NCBI RefSeq assembly: GCF_006385175.1
Contig: NZ_VFIY01000006.1
Location: 1-64,000 of the forward strand
Direction: 5' to 3'
Origin: Emcibacter nanhaiensis
Lineage (GTDB): Bacteria > Pseudomonadota > Alphaproteobacteria > Sphingomonadales > Emcibacteraceae
Length of the DNA stretch: 64,000 nt
Each line of letters opens with the position of its first letter. The stretch's first letter is position 1. The notes under the pieces were generated by a model. The model saw only the letters and a list, made by a program, of their open reading frames with translations, did no database searches and was not told the DNA's origin. The position numbers and the translations under genes were made by a program. Of this stretch, positions 45,965 through 59,531 are shown one piece after another.

Positions 45965-47824
45965 TCACCCCTGACTTTTTTCTGTTCTCTTTTTGAGGCG
46001 GTAGTCCAGACGCGCTCGGGTGATACGAAGAAGTTTGGCTGCATTGCTCACGTTGTTGCCAGCGGCTTTCATGGCATTATCAACAAGAATATCTTCCATC
46101 TCGTCAAGGGAAAGGCTGCTGCCGATGAACCGGCTTGCGATATCCTGTATGTGCTCTTCTTCTATGCTGGTCCGTTCACTGCCGTTACCTTTCTTTTGCC
46201 TAAGACTGCCCTCCTCATCCAGGCGGAAAACGGAAGACGTCATTTTCTCGCCATATGTGAAAAGGTGACAGAGATCAATTGAGCCGTTTTCCGGTGCCAT
46301 GATGACACCGCGTTCGATCACATTCTCAAGTTCCCTGATATTCCCTGGCCAGTCGTAGCTGAGCAGGGCTTCGACGGCTTTGGACGTAAATCCGGTGACA
46401 TTTTTCATGTGGATTTTGATGAAGCGTTTCAGGAAACTGTCCATCAGCAGGGGGATATCGTCCCGCCGTTCTCGCAGAGGAGGGATGCGGATGGGGAACA
46501 CATTCAGGCGGAAGAAAAGATCCTCCCGGAAACGTCCTTCGCTTACTTCTTTATGCAGATCGACGTTCGTTGCGGCAATTACTCTCACATTTATACGTTT
46601 TGTTGTTGTGCTGCCGACCCGCTCGATTTCTTTTTCCTGCAAGGCGCGCAGAAGCTTTCCCTGGGACGCCAAGCTCAGTGTCCCGGCTTCATCAAGGAAA
46701 ATCGTACCGTTATTGGCAAGTTCAAATCGGCCGGGGCGAGAGGTTACTGCACCGGTAAAAGCGCCCTTTTCAACCCCGAACAGCTCTGATTCAATAAGGT
46801 TTTCAGGTATGGCAGCGCAATTGACGGCAACAAACGGGGCGTCTGCGCGATTGCTGATACGGTAAAGGGTTCTGGCGAACATTTCCTTGCCGACCCCGGT
46901 TTCACCAAGGAACAGAACAGTGGCATTAGTTGGCGCCACCCGTGAGAGCATGTGGCAAGCGGCACTGAAACGGGCGGATACTCCCACCATTTCCGTATAG
47001 GGGCTGTCGATTTCCTCTTTGCCGGGCAAGGCGTTGACATCGGGCGTATATTCATCCGGAACACGTTCCTTCGGAGTGAGTGGGAGGGAGCTTTTTCTGA
47101 CCGTGACGGGCTCCATTTCTTCCACTTTTTTGTTCACAAACGGCTGAGGTTTGAAATATTTGAGGTCGTTTTCCGGATTTTCCCATTCACTTGCCGGCTT
47201 GCCGATCACTCGGCAGGTTTCATGCCCCAGGGCACTGCACTGCACTTCACGGAACAGGATGGGACGTCCCATTGTCACGCTGGCATACCCGCTGGCATAT
47301 CCTGTCTGCATCCAGCATACGGGTTCCGAACCGATGCCGTAGTTGTTAATGTGGACCTCGCCTTCAGAGGAGTCACGCCAGACAAATTCGCCATAGAATT
47401 TGCCTTTGGTGACATCGATCTCAAGCTTGACGGGCTCGACAATGACTATTCCCTCCAGGGCATGAAGCTGCGGGCCGGCAAGGAATAAATCCATGATGTC
47501 ATCCTGCTTGCTGCGCACTTTCATGGCAAGCTGCGCATCCCGCGTTCCACAGGTATATCCCATTCTTGTCAACAGGCCCCGTGCTGTCTCGATCCCGAAT
47601 GCTTCAATCAACTCAATGCGTAAAGCGCCCATGGAATAGGAATCGATCAGGAGCATTCTCCTGTTGTCAAGCCAGATCCGGCCGTCATCGGGCGAGAAGT
47701 GAAGCCGTTCGGTGAGGTCGCCGATCTGGGGCAGGAGAGCAGAGGTCTCGGGATCAATCAATGGTCTCGAAGTGTCGACTTTTGAGGCGCTGGAAGCGGA
47801 CTCTGCTGGGGATGTGTCTGACAT
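45965..47824 (-). CDS. XylR/DmpR-type sigma-54-dependent activator
   Basis: 619-residue enhancer-binding protein. The N-terminal sensing part (about 35-215) resembles XylR_N plus V4R, which bind aromatic effectors directly, with cysteines in CSALGHETC. The AAA+ domain (about 280-515) has Walker A GETGVGKE and the sigma-54 contact loop GAFTGA. A Fis-type helix-turn-helix ends the protein ([20 protein letters not shown]). Divergent from the monooxygenase operon, whose promoter is of sigma-54 type, so it is the likely regulator. Confidence 0.93.
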
Positions 47825-48159
47825 TCTTGGTGTCCTTGTTACATTCCGAACTCAGGTTCATATTTTTGTTAATGGTAGGGAGTGAAGTTAATAAAATTAT
47901 GAACTCTGGTTTTTTCAATGAGATCAAAAAAACTTCAGGCTGGCAATTTATTTTGTTGCTAATTTATCTTCCTTCGCCCTAATGGTTCTATAATGTATTG
48001 AAAACAAACAATAAAAAAATGCATAAGAGGTCGGGAATATAATTTTTTTCCAATTATCCGGCTGTATTTACCGTTATTGGCATCTCATTTGCATATTTAG
48101 TCCCGGAGGCTGAAAAAGTCATAATATCATAAATACAATATTGTCTGGGAGATAATTGT
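47825..48159. promoter_or_regulatory. Divergent control region of the monooxygenase operon
   Basis: 335 bases with no gene, AT-rich, between the activator and the operon. It should hold the activator's upstream binding sites and an integration-host-factor-type bend. A TTTTTT...AAAAAA-flanked element at about 47909-47932 is a weak candidate only. The sigma-54 core is listed separately. Confidence 0.6.
48077..48093 (+). promoter_or_regulatory. Sigma-54 (-24/-12) promoter
   Basis: TTGGCATCTCATTTGCA has the GG (48079-48080) and GC (48091-48092) dinucleotides separated by exactly 10 bp, and matches the consensus closely. Transcription should begin near 48104, about 56 nt before the first ATG. A bacterial enhancer-binding protein is encoded divergently next door. 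Confidence 0.85.
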
Positions 48160-49260
48160 ATGTGTTTGCATATTAAGTTGCAGAGGAGAGTCGAAAGTTT
48201 TGGGGGAGTGTTTTTCAGATTTCTTTTCGGGATCGTCCTTCTGTCCTGCTTGCCGGGAAACGTTCTGGCGGAAAATATAGCTTCTGAGCCGGAAGGGGGG
48301 CTGCAGAGCCCTGACTACAGGCTAGTGCCGGATAATCTCTATGATGTGGATTTCGATGATTTCCGCCATGGAATAGCCACCGGTTATTATGGAACAATTT
48401 TGCAAACCAGTGACGGAGGAAGCCACTGGAACAGGGTAAGATCCGACACTTCTGAGCTGTTGAGGCGCGTAGATATGGTGTCTGAGAACAAGGCTTGGTC
48501 AGTGGGGCATCGCGGCGGTATTTTTTATAGCGGGAACGGCGGACGCGACTGGGAGCTGCAGGCCCGTATCGAAGGAATTTTCCTGCGTGATATTTCCTTC
48601 TCATCGGAGCGGAACGGATGGGCGGTCGGACATGAAGCCACGATCCTGCACACCCGTGACGGCGGGAAAAGCTGGATTTCTCAGAAATTGAAAGACTATA
48701 GCGGCCGCGACCTGCCGCGCCTGAACGCGATTAAGGCTCTGGATGAGAACACTGCGGTGCTGGCCGGGGAATTCGGTGTTGTGGCGATAACCCATGACGG
48801 CGGCGAGAACTGGCACATTCTGCCGTCCGGTGTGAAAACCACCCTGACGGCTGTTGCATATGCCGGAGACCGGGCGGTCGCAGTTGGCCTTGATGGGGTT
48901 GCCCTCGATATATCCCTCGATGATACAGGACGGATTGTTCCGCTCGAGACCGGTGTGAAACAACATCTGTTTGATCTTGCCTTTGACCGTCAGGGGCGAG
49001 GCGTTATCGTCGGGCAGTCCGTTCTGTTGCGGTTTGAGGGAACCCGGGTTTCCCTGATGGAGGCTGAGCCGGATGTGGAACTGCCCTACCGGTGGTTTCA
49101 TGGTGTCGAGGTATTGCGTGACGGCGCAATTTATGCCGTTGGCCTGCAGGGCAACATGATCAGGGCCCGCTCTTCACAGTCCGGATTCCACCGGATCGCG
49201 AGGCTTGGCGACCCGGCTTCCGTGACTTCCGTCGTTTCCCCGGAAAGTGAAGGAGAGTAA
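48160..49260 (+). CDS. YCF48-like (BNR-repeat) periplasmic protein
   Basis: 366 residues. The signal peptide is about residues 1-38, ending VLA-E. Repeated blades follow the pattern G-x-I-x-x-T-x-DGG-x-x-W (for example GTILQTSDGGSHW, ATILHTRDGGKSW), predicting a beta-propeller related to the photosystem II assembly factor YCF48. Such genes commonly stand beside RND/MMPL genes in hydrophobic-compound loci. First gene after the sigma-54 promoter; Shine-Dalgarno GGGAGA lies upstream. Confidence 0.82.
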   Translation: MCLHIKLQRRVESFGGVFFRFLFGIVLLSCLPGNVLAENIASEPEGGLQSPDYRLVPDNLYDVDFDDFRHGIATGYYGTILQTSDGGSHWNRVRSDTSELLRRVDMVSENKAWSVGHRGGIFYSGNGGRDWELQARIEGIFLRDISFSSERNGWAVGHEATILHTRDGGKSWISQKLKDYSGRDLPRLNAIKALDENTAVLAGEFGVVAITHDGGENWHILPSGVKTTLTAVAYAGDRAVAVGLDGVALDISLDDTGRIVPLETGVKQHLFDLAFDRQGRGVIVGQSVLLRFEGTRVSLMEAEPDVELPYRWFHGVEVLRDGAIYAVGLQGNMIRARSSQSGFHRIARLGDPASVTSVVSPESEGE

Positions 49261-49261
49261 G

Positions 49262-51649
49262 ATGGCTGCACAGAAACTGTCCCGTTTTGTCGTTCGTTTC
49301 CCGGTTTGGTTCATTGCTGGAATTCTGCTGGTCTCATCCCTGTTGGGCTATTTTGCCTGGTCCGGGCTCTCGCTGAAGGTTGTCCTGGAGGAAATGCTGC
49401 CTGTCGGGCGCACGAATGTCCAGCTGATCCAGAAATTCGGCACCCAATTCGGCGGTGCCAATACCACCCTGATTGCCCTGGAAAATGAAAACGGCACCAT
49501 TTATGACAGGGAATTTCTGGAAAATTATATGAAGATTTCCGATGAGATTTACTTTCATCCGGAAACCATTCGCCATCTCGTTCAGTCTCTGTCGCTGAGG
49601 AAGACCAAGGCGGTAACCGGGTCTGGGGGACGTATCCAGATTGATGCCTTGATGTGGGGTCGGGCGCCTGATACGGATGAGAAAATGCAGCTTTTCCGTA
49701 GAAACGTGAAAGCGCAATATCAGGGTTTCCTTGTTTCCGATGACGAACGCTCCGCCATGATCGTTGCCGACTTCAAGGATGGCGCCGATTATGAGCAGCT
49801 CGTCAATTTCATCGATGACATCCGGGTAGCGGCGGCAGAGGACGGTATCAAGGTTTATGCCGTGGGCCGTCCGATCCTGCTCGGCATCATCTACAGGGCC
49901 CTGGACAAAACGCTCCTCATACTTGCCATATCCGTTCTGTTTGTTGCGGCGATTCTGTATGTCTATTTCCAGAATTTGATCGGGGTTTGCGTGCCCATCA
50001 TCAGCGCAACCATGGCGACATTCTGGGGGCTTGGGGCAATGGGGTATGTGCATTACAATCTTGATCCGTTACTCATTTTGTTGCCGGCATTTATCTTTGC
50101 CATTGTCCTGTCTCACAGTGTCCAGTTTATTTCACGGGTGTTCGAGGAGTTTTCCGAACATCACCATATGCGCGATGCAGTCCAGCATGGTCTGGCAAAA
50201 CTGATGTTCCCGAGCATGGCCGCCATTGTCACCGATGCGGCCGGTTTTACGGTTCTGGTCCTTGTGGGGATTCCGAGCATTCAGGCCCTGGCGGTAATTT
50301 GTACGATCTGGCTTCTTGCCATCGGTCCGTCGCTGATCTTTTCTGCGGCCCTGCTCTGCCTGCTGCCGCGGCCCGGCAAATACCGGACTGGCATCCATCT
50401 GGTGGAGCGGGTCTGGTCTGCAATGAATCTTGAAAAGCACGCCTTTGCAGTGACGGTTGCTGGACTGCTGGCCCTGGGCGGCGGCCTGTGGGGGTCGGGA
50501 TATCTGACAATCGGTGATGCCACGGGAAGCCCGATATTGTGGCCCGGGGATCAGTATAACCGCGACAATGAAGCGTTGAACAAAAGTTTCTCCGGCCTTG
50601 GAACAGACCTGATGCAGGTCTATATCGAGGGAGGCGACAACACCATGCTTGATCCTGAAGTCTATCATCGAATAGAGGCTCTGGATCGCCATGTCTATGA
50701 AACCGTCCCCCAGGCCCGGCCCGCCCAGAGCCTGGTGCCTGTAATCAAGAAAATCAACAGCGTCCTGTACGAGGGCGACCCGAGCTATGAAATTGTTCCG
50801 GAAACAACCGAGGAAATAGGGTTCAATATTTACCTGTTCCGTTCAAAGGGCGAGCCGGGGGATTTTGCTGCCTATACCAATCCGGAGTGGCAGATCGGAA
50901 ATATTACCATTCCGCTTAAGGACCACTCCGGCCAGACAGTGGACAAGGTTATTGCCGAGGTTGCCGGTTTTCTCGGGAAACAGCCGGCGCTTGGGAATGG
51001 TGCCAAATTCCTGTTTGCCGGCGGTCAGATTGGCATTGCCAAGGCTGTGAATGATGAAATCAGAGCCTCTAACAATACTGTTCTTATTGCCATTGTCCTT
51101 GTCATTACCTTCTGCGTTTTCGTTCTGTATCGCTCGGTTTCAGTAAGTCTGGTCCTGATAGCGAGCTTGGCGGCGGCCAATTTCATTACCTACAGCTTCA
51201 TGGCTTTCAAGGGGATCGGGCTTAGCCTCAACACACTTCCCCTGACAGCCCTGGGAGTGGGGCTCGGGGTGGATTACGGCATCTATATGCTGGATCGCAT
51301 CCGGGAGGAGGCCCGCGTACATGACCGCCACTTTGAAGCAGTGCGCGGGGCCATCAGAACATCCGGGAACGCCATCTTTGTTACTGCCATGACCATGGTT
51401 CTGCCGCTTATTCCATGGTTCCTGTTTTCGGCCCTGCGATTCCAGGCCGAAATGGGGTTGTTGCTGGGTATGGTGCTGTTTCTGAATATGATCGGGGCGC
51501 TGGTTTTTGTCCCCGCCGCCGTTCTTTACCTCAAACCGAAAGCAATCTTCGGTGATCCTGAAAGCGGAAATTTCAAAGAAAAAAAGTCGTCAGAAATTGA
51601 AACATCAATGATGAACGACAGCTTTCAGCATCAAAACACAGGGAGTTGA
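49262..51649 (+). CDS. RND/MMPL-family transporter
   Basis: 795 residues from the ATG at 49262, one base after the previous stop. A GTG at 49247 is the alternative. Two repeats of one plus five membrane helices with periplasmic domains are visible. The conserved TM4-type segment TALGVGLGVDYGIYMLDRI lies in the second half. It is short compared with HAE-type drug pumps (about 1000 residues) and fits the hydrophobe/lipid RND branch. It likely moves a substrate or lipid across the envelope for the hydroxylase system. Confidence 0.88.
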   Translation: MAAQKLSRFVVRFPVWFIAGILLVSSLLGYFAWSGLSLKVVLEEMLPVGRTNVQLIQKFGTQFGGANTTLIALENENGTIYDREFLENYMKISDEIYFHPETIRHLVQSLSLRKTKAVTGSGGRIQIDALMWGRAPDTDEKMQLFRRNVKAQYQGFLVSDDERSAMIVADFKDGADYEQLVNFIDDIRVAAAEDGIKVYAVGRPILLGIIYRALDKTLLILAISVLFVAAILYVYFQNLIGVCVPIISATMATFWGLGAMGYVHYNLDPLLILLPAFIFAIVLSHSVQFISRVFEEFSEHHHMRDAVQHGLAKLMFPSMAAIVTDAAGFTVLVLVGIPSIQALAVICTIWLLAIGPSLIFSAALLCLLPRPGKYRTGIHLVERVWSAMNLEKHAFAVTVAGLLALGGGLWGSGYLTIGDATGSPILWPGDQYNRDNEALNKSFSGLGTDLMQVYIEGGDNTMLDPEVYHRIEALDRHVYETVPQARPAQSLVPVIKKINSVLYEGDPSYEIVPETTEEIGFNIYLFRSKGEPGDFAAYTNPEWQIGNITIPLKDHSGQTVDKVIAEVAGFLGKQPALGNGAKFLFAGGQIGIAKAVNDEIRASNNTVLIAIVLVITFCVFVLYRSVSVSLVLIASLAAANFITYSFMAFKGIGLSLNTLPLTALGVGLGVDYGIYMLDRIREEARVHDRHFEAVRGAIRTSGNAIFVTAMTMVLPLIPWFLFSALRFQAEMGLLLGMVLFLNMIGALVFVPAAVLYLKPKAIFGDPESGNFKEKKSSEIETSMMNDSFQHQNTGS

Positions 51650-51682
51650 TAACGTTAACCTGGGAAGTATAGGGAACTGATA

Positions 51683-53533
51683 ATGAACAAATTACAAAAA
51701 AGTCTATTGGGATTGGCAGCCGGTGTGTTTTCGGCCTCGCCTGTAATGGCCTTGGAGGGGGACGACTGGTGGATTGGTGGACGTGTTAAACAGGGCTTTT
51801 CCGCAGCCTATGATCTTGAACATCAGGGGCTTGCCTCTGGACCGTCAAATTTTCTTGTTGAAATGAACGGCAACTGGGAGCCGACAAGCAATATAACCAT
51901 GAAGGCAAGTTTATGGTTGCGGGGCGACTGGTACCCCGATATCGGCAGTGACATCAGACAGGGAGGTATACAGGATTTCACGTCGCCGGGTTTCACTGAC
52001 CAGTTCGGCTTTAACATCAACGGCGCCGGTTCTGGCTTCCCCGAGGAACCATTTGGCGCCAGTGCCGGCGAAATCCGGGTTCTGGGGAATTTCAACGAGG
52101 ATATCCTAAGGGAGTTTTCTCTCAAATACCGTGACCCCGAGGGCCGTTTTTCCATGAAAATCGGAAAATTCCAGAGGGGCTGGGGACAGTCCGACGGACT
52201 GCGTCTTCTCGATGTTCTGCATGCCCAGGATCTCAGGGAGAGGTTTGTGTTAAGGGATGCCGTGGATACGCGCCTGCCGTCCTGGATGATGACCCTTGAT
52301 CTGGATTTCCGGCGCATGGGCATCGCCAAACCCTTTGAGGCCATTGGCATGAAGAGGGCCGCCCTGGAACTGATATTCATGCCGGAAGTGCGTCACAGCA
52401 GCTTTATCGTCAACAACCCCACATCGTCAAGTTTGGCGTCGGGCGGGATTTTCGGGTTCCCATTCCCGAACCTGATTGACAGCAAATCCGGACTCGGTCT
52501 GGGATTCATCGGGGTTAATCTTGCTGACAGGGAAGCGGATAAATTCAGCTTTGAGCATCCCAATATGGGCGCGCGGCTGAAGTTCGAGGCGCTCGATGCC
52601 GACTGGACCCTGAACTGGTTTTATGGTCATCAGGAACTGCCCGTCGTGGCCCTGCAGGGTTCGGATTTGGTGATCGGCTCGGCTCTGAATGATGTAAACA
52701 CCTCAGCCGCTGTCGTTCCGCTGGATCTGGCGACAACCTTGGGCGCGGCGCACGGGCCCGGCGGTTATCTGGATTTCCTGCGCAGTCTGGCGACCGCACC
52801 CGGCAGCGTGCCGTTTCCGCTGGCGCCTTTCGGATGCACGGATCCCCTTGTCGGGGCACCGGACTGTTCTTTAAACTTGAATTTCAATCTCGATTACACT
52901 TTCCGCAAGAAAATTGTCGGCGGAAGTATGACAAAGGAACTGAGCTGGCTGAAGCTTGGACCCAAGGATGTCTCCCCTGTCATGAGGGCGGAATTTTCCT
53001 ATGAATTTGACAAGCCTTTCAATATCGCGCGGGTGGTCACCCCCTTTGGCGAGGAGGAAACCGGAACGACGGCGCTGGTGATCGATCCTTCCCAGTCCAT
53101 TGTGAAGCGGGACCAGTGGTCCGTGATGGTCGGGTTTGACTATTTCCTCTGGCTGCCGTTCTGGAAGGACCAGCGCAGTTCGATTTTCACCAGCTTCCAG
53201 TTCTTCAATATCCATACCAACCAGCCGGATGACCTGTTGTACCAGGCTCCTTACTCCGCTTCTGGTGCGCGGGTCCATAAGAACCACAATTACATGACGT
53301 TCCTGTGGAGTGTCGGCCTGATGCAGGAAAAGCTGACTCTGGAAGGCCTGAGCATCTGGGATATGGACTTTAAAGGGTTCATCCATCGCCAGAGAGTGGA
53401 TTTCAACTTCTTCGGGGACAAGATACGGCCGCGTCTGGAATGGATATCCTTTTCCGGAAACCGGGAGCAGGGCGTTGTCGGGCTGTTCAGGAACAGCGAT
53501 CTGATCGAAGCGTCCGTTACCGTACAATTTTAG
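51683..53533 (+). CDS. DUF1302-family outer-membrane protein
   Basis: 616 residues. The signal peptide is about 1-23, ending VMA-L. The body is beta-rich with alternating aromatic residues and ends in a barrel-like strand ASVTVQF with C-terminal Phe, so it is probably an outer-membrane barrel. DUF1302 genes are repeatedly paired with DUF1329 beside steroid, terpene and hydrocarbon catabolic genes. It is predicted to admit the hydrophobic substrate; this is inference. Confidence 0.8.
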   Translation: MNKLQKSLLGLAAGVFSASPVMALEGDDWWIGGRVKQGFSAAYDLEHQGLASGPSNFLVEMNGNWEPTSNITMKASLWLRGDWYPDIGSDIRQGGIQDFTSPGFTDQFGFNINGAGSGFPEEPFGASAGEIRVLGNFNEDILREFSLKYRDPEGRFSMKIGKFQRGWGQSDGLRLLDVLHAQDLRERFVLRDAVDTRLPSWMMTLDLDFRRMGIAKPFEAIGMKRAALELIFMPEVRHSSFIVNNPTSSSLASGGIFGFPFPNLIDSKSGLGLGFIGVNLADREADKFSFEHPNMGARLKFEALDADWTLNWFYGHQELPVVALQGSDLVIGSALNDVNTSAAVVPLDLATTLGAAHGPGGYLDFLRSLATAPGSVPFPLAPFGCTDPLVGAPDCSLNLNFNLDYTFRKKIVGGSMTKELSWLKLGPKDVSPVMRAEFSYEFDKPFNIARVVTPFGEEETGTTALVIDPSQSIVKRDQWSVMVGFDYFLWLPFWKDQRSSIFTSFQFFNIHTNQPDDLLYQAPYSASGARVHKNHNYMTFLWSVGLMQEKLTLEGLSIWDMDFKGFIHRQRVDFNFFGDKIRPRLEWISFSGNREQGVVGLFRNSDLIEASVTVQF

Positions 53534-53554
53534 AAGAGATATAGGAGAGAGATA

Positions 53555-54967
53555 ATGAAACAAACTACCTTCAGGATGGCGGCAATGGGCGCCCTGGTTT
53601 CGGCGCTGAGCCTGACAATGGCGAATGCAGAGGAAAAATGGGTTGAAGACTGGAAAGCCTATGCTGCGCAAACAGGCGAACAGAAACATGCAGAGTGGGT
53701 CAAGCTGATTTCCGATCCCGAAGCAGTGAAGCTCGCAAAGGAATGGGCAGAACTCAGAGGGTATACCGCCTCGAGCCTTGTTGCCAAGGCGGATCTTCCG
53801 GCGGATCTTAAACCCGGCCTGGTCATCAACAAGGATAATATTTCCCAATACCCGTGGCTCAAGGACTATATGCCCAAGGCCATCATGGACCGCCTGCAGT
53901 CAGGCGACTGGTTTCAGTGGAAGGAAATTGTCATTGTCCCCACCAACAGCTACTATATGCAACGGGGCGTGATGGAGGAAACCCGTGAAGCCGTAAAGGA
54001 AGGGCGGACGTTCACGGCCACGCCTGAGGGTAATCTTCTGACCGGGGAAGGGAAGCATGCCCTGGCAACCCAAGGCGCCCTGCCATTCATTCACCCAAAA
54101 AACGGGCTGGAGCTGAACTGGCAGTTTGTGGCTCATGGCGTGAGCATCGACAATCTGGCATTCAAGCCTGTGAAGTTTGATGTTTGTGACAGTTCGAACA
54201 ATCTGGAACGTGAATACGAGGGCGCTCTGTGGTGGCAGAAATTCCATGGCCGCAAGGATTATCCTCCGTATGGCTCCGTGCCGAACACCGAAAATATTGT
54301 TGAAGGCGGTGGAATGTATTTTCTGAAGCCGTTTGACGTACGCGGCCTGGCGGCAGTGCGCCTGCGGTATGCGGAGGCGGACCGGGACGATGATTTCCGG
54401 GTCTTCATTCCCGGACTTCGCCGGACCAGGGTGCTTGCCGGCTCGGATGGTCAGGATCCGATGGCGGCAGGTCTCGAGATTACCTGGGACGAATGGCGCG
54501 GATACTGGCTCAAGACGGATCCGAAGTCGTTTGAGTATAATCTTGTGGGGGAGGGCTTTATCCTGGCCCAGCCTGAAACCGGACATGTGTATGACCCGGC
54601 AACCCGTTCCGAGAACGGATGCCAGATGGACCGGGTCGAGCTGGAACTGCGGCCGGTCTGGATCCTGGAGATTGATGACAAGGAAGGCAACTATCAGTAT
54701 TCCAAGCGCCGCATCTATATCGACAAGGAAAACTATTATCTGCAGCATGAGGAGATGTATGACCGTCGCGGCAACTTGTGGCGCGTCTGGGATGATGTCC
54801 GCGACTTTGATCCGAAAACGGGACAGGCCATGTGGAAAACTGTTGTGGAATGGAATCCGATCAGCAATCGCCTGACGCATCTGGACATGACATCTTCATG
54901 GGGCACGGTGGACGAAGAACCTTCGTCAGCAATATTCGATATTGATCATTTGCGCGATTATCGCTGA
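53555..54967 (+). CDS. DUF1329-family outer-membrane lipoprotein-like protein
   Basis: 470 residues. The signal peptide is about 1-24, ending ANA-E. DUF1329 segments include DFRVFIPGLRRTRVLAGSDGQDPM and MDRVELELRPVWILEI. It has a LolB-like predicted fold and a conserved WRVWDD segment. It normally partners DUF1302, suggesting delivery or export of a lipid-like molecule. 38 nt before the hydroxylase alpha gene, same operon. Confidence 0.8.
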   Translation: MKQTTFRMAAMGALVSALSLTMANAEEKWVEDWKAYAAQTGEQKHAEWVKLISDPEAVKLAKEWAELRGYTASSLVAKADLPADLKPGLVINKDNISQYPWLKDYMPKAIMDRLQSGDWFQWKEIVIVPTNSYYMQRGVMEETREAVKEGRTFTATPEGNLLTGEGKHALATQGALPFIHPKNGLELNWQFVAHGVSIDNLAFKPVKFDVCDSSNNLEREYEGALWWQKFHGRKDYPPYGSVPNTENIVEGGGMYFLKPFDVRGLAAVRLRYAEADRDDDFRVFIPGLRRTRVLAGSDGQDPMAAGLEITWDEWRGYWLKTDPKSFEYNLVGEGFILAQPETGHVYDPATRSENGCQMDRVELELRPVWILEIDDKEGNYQYSKRRIYIDKENYYLQHEEMYDRRGNLWRVWDDVRDFDPKTGQAMWKTVVEWNPISNRLTHLDMTSSWGTVDEEPSSAIFDIDHLRDYR

Positions 54968-55005
54968 TCATGACGGAACAAGAAATATAGGGAAAGGACT
55001 AGAAC

Positions 55006-56505
55006 ATGGCATTACTTAACAGATCGGACTGGTATGACCTTGCCCGGGATACCAACTGGACTCCCAAATATGTGACCGAGGAGGAGCTGTTTCCAAAGGA
55101 GATGAGTGACTGTTTCGACATTCCGAGGGATAAATGGTCCACTTATGACGAACCGTATAAAACAACCTACCGGGAATATGTAAAGGTTCAGCGGGAAAAA
55201 GATTCAGGGGCCTATTCCGTGAAGGCGGCTCTGGGGCGCATGAAATTCTATGAAGGGGCGGATCCGGGGTGGCTTTCAACCCTTAAGTCGCACTATGGCG
55301 CCATTGCCGTCCAGGAATATGCGGCGGGAATGGCCGAAGCAAGAATGGCCCGTTTCGGCAAGGCGCCAGGCATGAGGAACATGGCGACATTCGGCTTGAT
55401 GGACGAAACCCGCCATGGCCAGATCCAGCTCTATTTTCCCCATGAATATGTCAACAAGGACCGACAATTCGATTGGGCTCACAAGGCCATGCATACAAAT
55501 GAGTGGGGGGCCATTGCTGCCCGTCACATGTTTGCCGACATGATGAATACCAGGGATGCCGTTTCCGTTGCAATCATGCTGACATTTGCCTTTGAAACGG
55601 GCTTCACCAACATGCAGTTCCTGGGGCTGGCAGCGGATGCCGCAGAAGCGGGGGATGTGACCTTTTCCAACCTGATTTCCAGTATCCAGACCGATGAGGC
55701 GCGGCATGCTCAGATCGGCGCGCCGGCTCTGAAAATTCTCATCGAGAACGGGTACAAGGAGCAGGCCCAGAAAAAGGTGGATATCGCTTTCTGGCGGTCC
55801 TGGCGCCTGTTCACGGTGCTGACCGGTCCGATGATGGACTATTACACGCCGCTGGACAAACGGGAGAAATCCTTCAAGGAGTTCATGGAGGAATGGATCA
55901 TCGGGCAGTTCGAACGGAACATGCTGGATCTCGGTCTTGATACGCCCTGGTACTGGGATATTTTCCTGGAGGAGCTGAGCGACACCCATCATGGCATGCA
56001 CATGGGGGTCTGGTACTGGCGTCCGACGGTCTGGTGGAACCCGGCCGCTGGCGTCTCTCCGGATGAGAGGGACTGGCTTGAAGAGAAATACCCGGGCTGG
56101 AACGACAGCTGGGGGCAGTGCTGGGACGTGATTACGGAAAACATCAAGCATGGCCGGGAAGATCTCACTTTACCTGAAACCCTGCCGGTTATCTGCAACA
56201 TGACCAATCTTCCCATTGTCGGCGCGCCCGGCAAACGATGGGGATTCAAGGATTACCACCATACCTATAAGGGCCGCCGGTATCATTTCGGCTCTCTCGT
56301 GGATCGCTGGATTTTCGAGCAGGACCCCGAAAGATACGCCGGACACCAGTCCCTGATCGACAGGTTCCTGTCAGGCGCCATTCAGCCCCCCACCATTGAA
56401 GGGGCGTTGAAATACATGGGGCTGGGGCCGGAAGAAAGCGGCCGGGATGCCCATGATTATGCCTGGGCCTGGAATTACAACGTAACCAGCAAAGAAGCGG
56501 TCTAG
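55006..56505 (+). CDS. tmoA: Toluene-4-monooxygenase-type hydroxylase alpha subunit
   Basis: 499-residue diiron subunit that activates O2 and hydroxylates an aromatic or related hydrocarbon. It is collinear with TmoA: iron ligands Glu104, Glu134, His137, Glu197, Glu231 and His234 fall at the same numbers (EYAA, DETRH, FETGF, TDEARH). Pocket residues Ile100, Ala107, Phe176, Phe196, Thr201 and Phe205 also match, as do Asn202 and Gln228. The exception is Gln103, where T4MO has Gly. That residue sits at the active site, so substrate range or regiospecificity may differ. Gene order A-B-C-D-E-F follows. Confidence 0.95.
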   Translation: MALLNRSDWYDLARDTNWTPKYVTEEELFPKEMSDCFDIPRDKWSTYDEPYKTTYREYVKVQREKDSGAYSVKAALGRMKFYEGADPGWLSTLKSHYGAIAVQEYAAGMAEARMARFGKAPGMRNMATFGLMDETRHGQIQLYFPHEYVNKDRQFDWAHKAMHTNEWGAIAARHMFADMMNTRDAVSVAIMLTFAFETGFTNMQFLGLAADAAEAGDVTFSNLISSIQTDEARHAQIGAPALKILIENGYKEQAQKKVDIAFWRSWRLFTVLTGPMMDYYTPLDKREKSFKEFMEEWIIGQFERNMLDLGLDTPWYWDIFLEELSDTHHGMHMGVWYWRPTVWWNPAAGVSPDERDWLEEKYPGWNDSWGQCWDVITENIKHGREDLTLPETLPVICNMTNLPIVGAPGKRWGFKDYHHTYKGRRYHFGSLVDRWIFEQDPERYAGHQSLIDRFLSGAIQPPTIEGALKYMGLGPEESGRDAHDYAWAWNYNVTSKEAV

Positions 56506-56520
56506 AGAGGAGTGGGAAAG

Positions 56521-56775
56521 ATGACGATGGTACCTTTGGTTGTAAATTTTGAAGGTGATTTTGTGCTGCAGCTGGTCCCGGTCGAAAGCAGTTTTACCAT
56601 GGACCAGGTTGCCGAAGCAGCGGCGCACCATTCCCTGAACCGGCGGGTCAAACCCCGGGAAGGGGGCGTCCTGCGGGTGCGTATCCAGGACGCAGAAGAG
56701 CCGGTGGACCGGAGTGATACGGTGGAACAGGCGGGTTTCGAGAATATGGAAACCATCGAAGTTTATTACGAGTGA
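56521..56775 (+). CDS. tmoB: Monooxygenase hydroxylase gamma subunit (TmoB-like)
   Basis: 84-residue small subunit of the (alpha beta gamma)2 hydroxylase, ubiquitin-like in T4MO. The segment SLNRRVKPREGGVLRVRIQD matches TmoB. I start at the ATG at 56521, 9-15 nt after GAGAGGAG; a GTG three codons upstream is possible. Confidence 0.88.
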   Translation: MTMVPLVVNFEGDFVLQLVPVESSFTMDQVAEAAAHHSLNRRVKPREGGVLRVRIQDAEEPVDRSDTVEQAGFENMETIEVYYE

Positions 56776-56800
56776 TTTTAAGCTGAAAGAAGAAAGATAG

Positions 56801-57136
56801 ATGCCTTTTACAAAAGTATGTTCCCTCGATGACCTGTGGGAAGGTGAAATGGAAATGTTTGAGGTTGACGGTCACGAAGTCCTCATAATTCATGGGGATG
56901 GAGGGTATGTCAGTGCCGTACAGGGCATATGCCCGCATCAGGAAATTCCTCTCGAGGAAGGCACGCTGCAGGGGAAGACTCTGACTTGCCGCGCGCATCT
57001 GTGGCAATTTGATGTGGAAGCCGGAGAGGGCATTAACCCGACCGGTTGCAAGCTCGCCATTTACCCGACAGAGGTTCGGGACGACCATATTTATGTGAAT
57101 GTCGACGGCGTCACGCCATATTTCACTGCGGCATGA
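56801..57136 (+). CDS. tmoC: Rieske-type ferredoxin (TmoC-like)
   Basis: 111-residue electron carrier between reductase and hydroxylase. The [2Fe-2S] ligands are Cys44 and His46 (CPHQ) and Cys63 and His66 (CRAHLW). The length is as in TmoC. It lies in the standard third position of the operon. Confidence 0.95.
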   Translation: MPFTKVCSLDDLWEGEMEMFEVDGHEVLIIHGDGGYVSAVQGICPHQEIPLEEGTLQGKTLTCRAHLWQFDVEAGEGINPTGCKLAIYPTEVRDDHIYVNVDGVTPYFTAA

Positions 57137-57164
57137 CAGGCAGTCTATTTCAGGAGAAATATCA

Positions 57165-57476
57165 ATGAGCAGCAATATTAAAGATGCGCATAAACATAAT
57201 CGGGTCGGACCGATCTTCCGGGCGGGAGAACTGGCCAGTGCGGCCGTCGACGCCTTGGAAGAGGACAATCCTGACAAGAAATTCAATGTCGAAGACCGGT
57301 CAGCCTATGTCCGTGTCGAGACCGACCATGAATGTGTCATACGTCGAAAAACGATGGAGGAAATCCTCGGAAGGCCGTTTGACATGCAGGAACTTGAAGT
57401 GGTTCTGGCATCCTTCTCGGGCCAGATTGAAGCGGAACAGGAATATATCCGTTTTTATTTTGCGACAAAAATGTAA
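57165..57476 (+). CDS. tmoD: Monooxygenase effector protein (TmoD-like)
   Basis: 103-residue cofactor-free coupling protein that binds the hydroxylase and tunes catalysis. The ATG at 57165 follows AGGAGA; the longer frame from 57099 overlaps tmoC and is rejected. Segments VGPIFRAGELASAAVDALEEDNP and RKTMEEILGRPFDMQELE are typical. Confidence 0.9.
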   Translation: MSSNIKDAHKHNRVGPIFRAGELASAAVDALEEDNPDKKFNVEDRSAYVRVETDHECVIRRKTMEEILGRPFDMQELEVVLASFSGQIEAEQEYIRFYFATKM

Positions 57477-57500
57477 CGGACAAAATTTAGGGAGCAGATC

Positions 57501-58496
57501 ATGACGGAGACAGTGGAAAAAATGAAACCTTTGAAAACCTGGAGCTATTTGAGCAAGAACCGCAGGAGACCTAGTGAGTATGAAATCGTTTCAGCGGGAC
57601 TGCACTTTAGTACAGATAACCCCGATTGTCCCTGGGAGCTTGACCCGGATATTTTTATGAACCGGTGGTTCCGTCAATACCGGGAAGGAAGCCCGCTCAA
57701 CCATGATGACTGGGATGGATTTCGTGATCCTGACGAACTGGTTTACCGGACCTATAACATTATTCAGGACGGCCAGGAAAACTATATTGACGGCCTGATC
57801 AAAGAATTTGACGATCTCGAGCACGACCAGGGCCTGCAACCGCAATGGGTGGATGTTTTGGCAAAACTGTATACGCCAGGACGTTATCTGATGCACGGTC
57901 TGCAAATGGCATCCGCTTATATGACCAAAATAGCGCCGGCCAGTACGATTTCCAACTGTTCTACATTCCAGGCTGCAGACAGCCTCAGGTGGTTGTCGCA
58001 TCTGGCCTACCGTACCAGGCAGCTTTCACTGGTCTGGCCGGATTACGGATTTGGTGAGAATGAGCGGGATATCTGGGAAAACGCCTCCCATTGGCAGGGT
58101 TTTCGCGAGCTTCTTGAGAAAGCACTCATCGCCTATGACTGGGGGGAAACCTTTGTCGCTGTGAATCTGGTGCTGAAGCCTGCGGTGGATGAAGCTTTCC
58201 TCCGCCAGTTCGGACATGCTGCGCGCAGGTTTGACGATACCCTGCTGGGTTTCCTGGTTGACGCCCAGTTGGTGGACAGCGAAAGGTCACGTCGATGGAC
58301 GACCGGTCTGGTGCAGTATATGCAGGAGACAGAGTCCAATCAGGATATCCTTGATGACTGGGTCGAGAAATGGGTGCCTCTGGGAGACGCTGCAATCGAC
58401 GCTTTTTGTGCTGCGATGCCGGACAGCCCCTCTGCTGCAGATGACGCCAAGCGGGACAGCTGGTCCTTCCGGGCGGGTCTGGGTCTTTCAGCATAA
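57501..58496 (+). CDS. tmoE: Monooxygenase hydroxylase beta subunit (TmoE-like)
   Basis: 331-residue ferritin-fold partner of the alpha subunit without the iron ligands. KTWSYLSKNRRRPSEYEIVSAG at the N-terminus is characteristic, and the length is near that of TmoE (about 327). It completes the hydroxylase core with alpha and gamma. Confidence 0.93.
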   Translation: MTETVEKMKPLKTWSYLSKNRRRPSEYEIVSAGLHFSTDNPDCPWELDPDIFMNRWFRQYREGSPLNHDDWDGFRDPDELVYRTYNIIQDGQENYIDGLIKEFDDLEHDQGLQPQWVDVLAKLYTPGRYLMHGLQMASAYMTKIAPASTISNCSTFQAADSLRWLSHLAYRTRQLSLVWPDYGFGENERDIWENASHWQGFRELLEKALIAYDWGETFVAVNLVLKPAVDEAFLRQFGHAARRFDDTLLGFLVDAQLVDSERSRRWTTGLVQYMQETESNQDILDDWVEKWVPLGDAAIDAFCAAMPDSPSAADDAKRDSWSFRAGLGLSA

Positions 58497-58514
58497 GTCA
58501 AGGAGAGAGGCCAA

Positions 58515-59531
58515 GTGTATAAAATAGTGGTTGAAAATTCCGGTACCTCTTTTGAGTGCGGAGAGGAAGATACTTTGCTTAGGGCAGCCCTGAGGGCAGG
58601 GATCGCCTTTCCTTACGAATGCAATGTCGGCCAGTGCGGTAGTTGCCGGTTCGAGGTGTTGGAGGGCGAAGTCCGCTCATTGTGGGCCGAGGCGCCCGCC
58701 CTGACACCGCGCGATCATCGGAAGGGCTTAAAGCTCGGCTGTCAGTCCCGGCCCGTATCGGATTGCAGGATTAAGGTTCGTCTTGACCAGAGCTGTCTGC
58801 CATTGTTTCAACCACTGGCTCGGGATGCCGAACTCGTGTCAATACGGGATGTCACCCATGATATGCGTGAATTCAGTTTTAAAACAGCAGAGCAGGCAAG
58901 ATTCGCGCCTGGGCAATATATGCTTTTGCATCTGCCTGGCGTACCCGGACCTCGGGCCTATTCCATGTGTAGCCAGCCAAATGAAGAGGGTGAATGGCGC
59001 TTTCTCATAAAAAGAGTGCCGGAAGGAAAGGGCAGCGAATATTTGTTTGATCATATAAGGCCCGGGCAGAAAATTACCCTGGACGGGCCCTATGGACTGG
59101 CTTATTTCAGAGAGGATATCGACCGGGAAATTGTTTGCGTTGCCGGCGGGTCGGGCCTTGCTCCTCTTATCTCCATTGCCACAGCGGCAGCCTATCACCC
59201 AGCCTTCAAGGAGCGGCGTATAAGGTTCTTTTTTGGAGGGCGGGGGCCTGCGGATATATGCGGTGATGACTATCTGCGCTTGCTGCCGGGTTTCGGGGAT
59301 CGCATAACTTTTCATTCCTCCATCTCTGTGCCTGAAATGGACCCCAACAATATGTGGGTGGGGCCGGTAGGCTTTATCCATGAATCGGTAGAAGGGTTGC
59401 TTGGCGATAAATTACAGGATTATGAGTATTACATCGCCGGACCTCCGCCAATGCTTCAGGCAACCCTGCAGATGCTGGCCATAAAACATAAAGTAAATGT
59501 GGAGCACATTCATTTTGATCGGTTTTTTTAA
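58515..59531 (+). CDS. tmoF: NADH:ferredoxin reductase of the monooxygenase (TmoF-like)
   Basis: 338-residue flavoprotein with a GTG start after AGGAGAGAGG. The N-terminal plant-type [2Fe-2S] domain holds CNVGQCGSC and a fourth Cys in LGCQSRP. The FAD domain has RAYSMCS and the NAD domain GGSGLAPL. It passes electrons from NADH to the Rieske ferredoxin. Last gene of the operon, followed by a terminator. Confidence 0.93.
   Translation: MYKIVVENSGTSFECGEEDTLLRAALRAGIAFPYECNVGQCGSCRFEVLEGEVRSLWAEAPALTPRDHRKGLKLGCQSRPVSDCRIKVRLDQSCLPLFQPLARDAELVSIRDVTHDMREFSFKTAEQARFAPGQYMLLHLPGVPGPRAYSMCSQPNEEGEWRFLIKRVPEGKGSEYLFDHIRPGQKITLDGPYGLAYFREDIDREIVCVAGGSGLAPLISIATAAAYHPAFKERRIRFFFGGRGPADICGDDYLRLLPGFGDRITFHSSISVPEMDPNNMWVGPVGFIHESVEGLLGDKLQDYEYYIAGPPPMLQATLQMLAIKHKVNVEHIHFDRFF

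Follow-up and report, generated by a model that had tools for sequence, protein, structure and literature searches.

The 64,000-nucleotide stretch of Emcibacter nanhaiensis DNA analyzed here (the window) probably encodes an ordinary tmoABCDEF aromatic monooxygenase from an uncharacterized clade, lying beside an Ame-like cassette, in which Gln103 of the alpha subunit would tune the product distribution only slightly and jointly with neighbors such as Gly108 and Met109. The type of enzyme is well known, the clade is so far uncharacterized, and this is not a new kind of system. Judging from its family, the enzyme would hydroxylate small aromatic hydrocarbons using O2 and NADH. The gene order, an AmeABCD-like cassette followed by tmoABCDEF beside a divergent sigma-54 activator, would suggest co-transcription and the functions assigned here, and the phenolic product would probably be handed to phenol hydroxylase and catechol 2,3-dioxygenase, whose genes are located in other parts of the genome. 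Gln103 itself would most likely be a steric near-equivalent of Glu103 in ToMO, minus its charge.

The Alpha Subunit Is of the TmoA Type

The genes and sites concerned are the following, in coordinates of the window.

45965..47824, minus strand: XylR/DmpR-type sigma-54 activator, divergent from the operon (Pfam XylR_N, V4R, Sigma54_activat, HTH_8)
48078..48093, plus strand: candidate sigma-54 (-24/-12)-like promoter site (matching the -24/-12 consensus at 10 of 12 positions)
48160..49260, plus strand: AmeC-like YCF48-type protein (Pfam PSII_BNR)
49247..51649, plus strand: AmeD-like RND/MMPL transporter (Pfam MMPL; NCBIfam HAE3 TIGR00921)
51683..53533, plus strand: AmeA-like, possibly DUF1302-like, putative outer-membrane protein (cassette position; partial hhalign match)
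53555..54967, plus strand: AmeB-like DUF1329 protein (Pfam DUF1329)
55006..56505, plus strand: tmoA-type alpha subunit with Gln103, 499 amino acids (HMMER alignments, aligned rows, Pfam)
55312..55314, plus strand: codon 103, CAG (Gln)
55534-55536: codon 177 (Ala177), adjoining pocket residue Phe176 in sequence
56521..56775, plus strand: tmoB, gamma subunit (Pfam TmoB)
56801..57136, plus strand: tmoC, Rieske ferredoxin (Pfam Rieske)
57165..57476, plus strand: tmoD, effector protein (Pfam MmoB_DmpM)
57501..58496, plus strand: tmoE, beta subunit (Pfam Phenol_Hydrox)
58515..59531, plus strand: tmoF, NADH reductase (Pfam Fer2, FAD_binding_6, NAD_binding_1)

The alpha subunit scored about 843 bits in HMMER against each of the T4MO and ToMO alpha chains, versus 133 bits against phenol hydroxylase and 73 bits against soluble methane monooxygenase (sMMO). 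ToMO (PDB 1t0q) aligns to residues 1-492 free of gaps, and T4MO (PDB 3dhg) to residues 1-490, interrupted once, by a one-residue gap close to residue 473. Each of the iron ligands E104, E134, H137, E197, E231, and H234 is conserved in 96 of 96 rows of the alignment (genome loci being the best 80 of 437), which, together with the HMMER alignments, bears out the first-pass annotation of the subunit as collinear with TmoA and retaining all six ligands; the pocket residues I100, A107, F176, F196, T201, and F205 are also as it listed them. In a tree built without phenol hydroxylase or sMMO, the subunit falls into the same 89-row group as T4MO and ToMO. Pfam matches place alpha, gamma, Rieske, effector, beta, and reductase genes in the order ABCDEF, the same six-component set as in T4MO.

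Compared with T4MO (TmoABCDEF of Pseudomonas mendocina KR1), the window protein is 69% identical in the alpha chain and keeps all iron ligands and the pocket residues named above, whereas T4MO residues G103, V108, T109, D177, and D285 are replaced by Gln, Gly, Met, Ala, and Lys. The identity to the alpha chain of ToMO (Pseudomonas sp. OX1) is likewise 69%. Glu103 of ToMO resembles Gln103 in shape but is an acid, residues S108, T109, D177, and S285 are unlike those of the window, and ToMO sits in a separate clade of the tree.

Residue 103 in the Window Protein and Its Relatives

Gln103 stands opposite G103 of T4MO (3dhg) and E103 of ToMO (1t0q) in the HMMER alignment, just as the first-pass annotation had stated, and its remark that Gly108 departs from TmoA also holds, G108 facing V108 of T4MO. 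Column 108 is itself variable (A 55, S 18, M 12, G 7, V 3, and T 1 in 96 rows, with genome loci the best 80 of 437). A further T4MO chain, PDB 3ri7, has Leu at 103, and in Pseudomonas OX1 phenol hydroxylase (3u52, 2inn), read via the window genome's own phenol hydroxylase, a Leu precedes the matching Glu. Gln is thus absent at this position from the three enzymes with solved structures that were read (T4MO Gly, ToMO Glu, phenol hydroxylase Leu), and within this small set of characterized enzymes nothing showed Gln103 to be common, the finding that would have refuted the first-pass annotation. No described Gln103 (Q103) enzyme was found in the literature searched, whose partial coverage is no proof of absence.

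We read column 103 in two surveys, whose rows include near-duplicates, so that the counts are not independent. Survey 1 comprised 96 rows: the query, the same-family relative L003, 2 PDB sequences, 12 loci from plasmids, and 80 from genomes, the latter being the best 80 of the 437 candidates that had been confirmed. The plasmid loci stem from 12 of the 16 plasmid records in which a near-full-length match reached at least 49% identity (H5, H7, H8, and H13 were left out); only the best place per record was taken, and L029, a fragmentary copy from Burkholderia vietnamiensis G4, was left out. Survey 2 contributed 28 more loci, all with E values of 1e-120 or lower; of these, 27 came from a 385-genome sample of the class and 1 from a 398-genome sample of the phylum. 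Matches were found in 16 genomes of the class sample and 3 of the phylum sample, the window's own counted in each, and 2 of 32 genomes of the window's family, its own included, have a tmoA-type gene.

In survey 1, column 103 holds G 52, A 17, L 9, P 8, Q 4, V 2, N 2, and E 2 (genome loci the best 80 of 437). With survey 2 added, 123 of 124 rows are lettered and eleven different residues occur: G 53, A 27, L 9, P 8, V 7, T 6, Q 4, I 3, N 2, E 2, and S 2 (survey 1 genome loci again the best 80 of 437). The four Gln103 rows are the window, L030 (a MAG titled Chromatiales bacterium PL25a_bin.61; 87% identical to the window alpha subunit), L003 (82%), and L102 from Solimonas aquatica (69%). The first three form a clade in which Gln103 is kept in 3 of 3 members, encoded by CAG in each; given identities of 87 and 82%, it is not a sequencing slip.

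Other rows deserve mention. Asn103, likewise polar, occurs in two nearly identical sequences, L096 (a Cycloclasticus MAG with Diesel in its isolate name) and L097 (a Methylococcaceae MAG). The tmoA-type gene L146 (G776:C8:38144-39619) has one in-frame TAA within the match, which could reflect decay of the gene or an error in sequencing. L029, on plasmid pBVIE04 of B. vietnamiensis G4, is a tmoA-like fragment (155-residue match) followed by a transposase gene. Records H61 and H62 of a phage collection, both named Acinetobacter phage MD-2021a, carry a distant gene, 28% identical and annotated tmoA, and could be misassigned plasmid or host contigs.

Lability of Position 103 and Residues That Mark the Clade

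A quick maximum-likelihood tree was computed from the 96 survey 1 rows (genome loci the best 80 of 437), column 103 included. The window, L030, and L003 form one clade with an SH-aLRT value of 100, and its branching relative to the remaining groups is left as an open fork. L102 branches apart from it, so Gln103 arose at least twice. Column 103 underwent at least 17 changes on this tree. Two ToMO-type proteins of Marinobacter salarius, L018 (plasmid) and L099 (chromosome), form one tight group, close to ToMO, yet have Ala103 and Glu103, respectively, with Glu in ToMO; the split between such close sequences shows that the site turns over quickly.

Within an 89-row core (the 96 rows minus 7 distant ones), column 103 requires 14 changes, versus 0 for each of the six ligands, F176, T201, and F205, 1 for F196, 2 for A107, 3 for I100, 9 for column 108, and 11 for column 109. 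As many as 14 changes are reached by 58 of the 499 columns, 103 included, which rules out that column 103 is uniquely variable; it is labile, not exceptional. The survey thus separates often-changing positions of the pocket region (103, 108, and 109) from fixed ones (the ligands, 176, 201, and 205), and the natural variants at 103 and its neighbors are a ready-made pocket set for biocatalysis.

Residues D35, C36, R56, M79, M109, L131, A177, K285, K288, R425, and V499 occur in the 89-row core only in the three-member clade, and each of Q103, G108, R41, and N305 is shared with one of the 86 rows outside it. M109 and A177 stay confined to the clade when the set is extended (3 of 123 each), column 177 elsewhere in the 124 rows being Asp in 116, Glu in 4, and a gap in one. 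Lys285 was rejected as a mark of the clade, as 17 of 124 rows carry it. Met109 and Ala177, with the gene order common to its three loci, are more distinctive of the clade than Gln103. That Gln103 is kept together with the clade-only Met109 and Ala177 counts against the reading as an ordinary enzyme, in that selection for a particular substrate would fit this pattern.

Published Variants and the Role of Residue 103

The first-pass annotation placed residue 103 in the hydroxylase pocket, which agrees with PMC3962191, where E103 and F176 of ToMO are said to contribute to the cavity edge. According to the same review, F176 variants of ToMO convert 2-phenylethanol exclusively to p-tyrosol, E103G alone has a regioselectivity on 2-phenylethanol similar to that of the wild type, and E103G combined with F176 changes in double variants is improved. 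The E103G/F176A variant accepts 2-indanol, both changes relieving hindrance at the para site (PMC4411060). E103G thus adds to the effects of F176 changes, and residue 103 can matter when combined with them on bulky substrates, although by itself the change did little on the one substrate described.

The annotation had further proposed that a Gln could hydrogen-bond the substrate and shift selectivity. Put most strongly, Gln103 would be a specificity determinant: hydrogen bonding between its amide and either a polar substrate or the phenolic product would direct hydroxylation elsewhere than in T4MO and ToMO. The pocket-edge position reported in PMC3962191, the conservation in 3 of 3 clade members, and the rarity elsewhere (4 of 123, survey 1 genome loci being the best 80 of 437) speak for this proposal; the ten other residues found at 103 in relatives, the number of changes on the tree, and the wild type-like regioselectivity of E103G alone on 2-phenylethanol (PMC3962191) speak against it, and we regard it as unlikely. 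A labile column and a wild type-like E103G make Gln103 alone weak evidence of altered selectivity.

Toluene has no hydrogen-bond acceptor. An AlphaFold2 model built from 17 aligned sequences (mean pLDDT 49.5, residues 91-120 below 50) is uninformative on the side chain at 103. We also rejected a correspondence between residue 103 and Leu110, the gate residue of sMMO: counting back from the ligand row of a table in PMC12917321, E104 corresponds to MmoX E114, which pairs 103 with G113 and I100 with L110. The count is our own; the table pairs L110 with IsoA L101 and G113 with IsoA G104, which misfits its own ligand row. Taken together, Gln103 is real and rare, is kept throughout its clade, and occupies an evolutionarily labile position at the pocket edge; it gives a modest hint on substrate preference.

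The Regulator and the Cassette Upstream of tmoA

Across 45965-59531, all eleven proteins (regulator, Ame-like cassette, and tmoABCDEF) are matched with their order kept in L030 and in L110, a locus of a same-family genome, at identities of 71-87% in L030 (53% for the YCF48-type protein) and 67-84% in L110 (51% for the YCF48-type protein). The XylR/DmpR-type activator has copies in matching position that are 74% (L030) and 82% (L110) identical. The candidate site at 48078 was scored against the -24/-12 consensus; it is one of 4 such matches in the whole window on both strands and lies in the intergenic region, mononucleotide shuffles of which gave a match in 4 of 1000. The matching region of L110 has one such site (3 of 1000 shuffles match), and positions 2812-3300 of L030 have two (23 of 1000); of the latter, one falls within the YCF48-type frame when this is taken at its maximum length, upstream of the matched part of that gene.

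The cassette lies directly upstream of tmoA in 3 of 3 Gln103-clade loci. A tblastn scan at E 1e-8 covered 94 loci (L003 and L017-L109), many of them short, with L119-L146 outside it. Among these 94 loci, many short, the YCF48-type and DUF1302-like proteins matched only in L030, the RND protein in L030 and weakly in L102, and the DUF1329 protein in L003, L030, L049, and L090 and weakly in L031. As in the AmeABCD system of Castellaniella defragrans, RND, YCF48-type, DUF1329, and putative outer-membrane proteins occur together, a likeness of composition taken from the description of that system; of these partners, the YCF48-type (PSII_BNR) and DUF1329 proteins are both present by Pfam. Unlike AmeABCD, the window cassette runs C-D-A-B and is followed by the monooxygenase operon, its RND protein stays under the cut-off of its best NCBIfam match (HAE3 TIGR00921, 175 bits against 352), and its putative outer-membrane protein misses the DUF1302 model. 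The latter protein gave no Pfam match, DUF1302 included, even when the scan was relaxed to E 10, so a Pfam-based DUF1302 call was dropped; hhalign against a DUF1302 protein of the same genome gave 94% probability over a partial alignment of 92 columns.

AmeABCD is described in PMC6394551 as an efflux system for apolar monoterpenes. A strain lacking ameABCD tolerated monoterpenes less well and accumulated more Nile Red, but the strains with and without the genes showed almost the same Nile Red efflux when it was followed in real time; the export role is therefore suggested, not proved. With the efflux cassette next to the tmo operon, one can test the idea that the exporter of a solvent is located alongside the enzyme consuming it. 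A broader proposal takes the clade, which occurs in the window's family and in the MAG titled Chromatiales, as a sigma-54-controlled unit with a dedicated hydrocarbon exporter and a pocket region remodeled at Gln103, Gly108, Met109, and Ala177 for a substrate or product pattern absent from T4MO and ToMO; we consider this improbable.

Resemblance to a monoterpene system means that the substrate might exceed toluene in size. The clade would then be specialized for an apolar hydrocarbon of greater bulk (a monoterpene or an alkylbenzene, for example), against which the Ame-like cassette would protect, with the same four pocket-region residues remodeled and Lys285 at the column of T4MO D285. The cassette composition (PMC6394551), its position directly 5' of tmoA in the clade loci, and the location of D285 at the T4MO tunnel entrance (PMC3962191), with K285 opposite it in the window, are consistent with such a specialization. 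However, the window genome has a second RND, DUF1302, and DUF1329 set beside its phenol hydroxylase genes, and the phenol hydroxylase cluster of Zoogloea oleivorans contains DUF1302 and DUF1329 genes (PMC7012976), so these genes are not terpene-specific; in addition, the XylR_N regulator points to aromatics and Lys285 is not clade-specific. We hold this specialization to be very unlikely. That the window enzyme is an isoprene monooxygenase, the IsoABCDEF type sharing the six-component architecture of the window operon (PMC12917321), was considered and, with IsoA itself outside the comparison, thought unlikely. Three Rhodococcus plasmid homologues, whose records bear no isoA label, are 58-59% identical to the window alpha subunit and have Pro103.

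Downstream Metabolism in the Genome

The ordinary aromatic monooxygenase that we favor would fit the remaining gene content of the genome. About 190 kb away on the same contig lie phenol hydroxylase genes, a catechol 2,3-dioxygenase gene, and an aldehyde dehydrogenase gene, and the catechol 2,3-dioxygenase model TIGR03211 scores above its cut-off at two places in the genome. This content would be compatible with a route from arene to phenol to catechol and on to ring cleavage. The second RND, DUF1302, and DUF1329 set adjoins these catabolic genes at L111 383-15036 (G000:C6, about 239-254 kb), and DsbA-like and GST genes are also found next to it.
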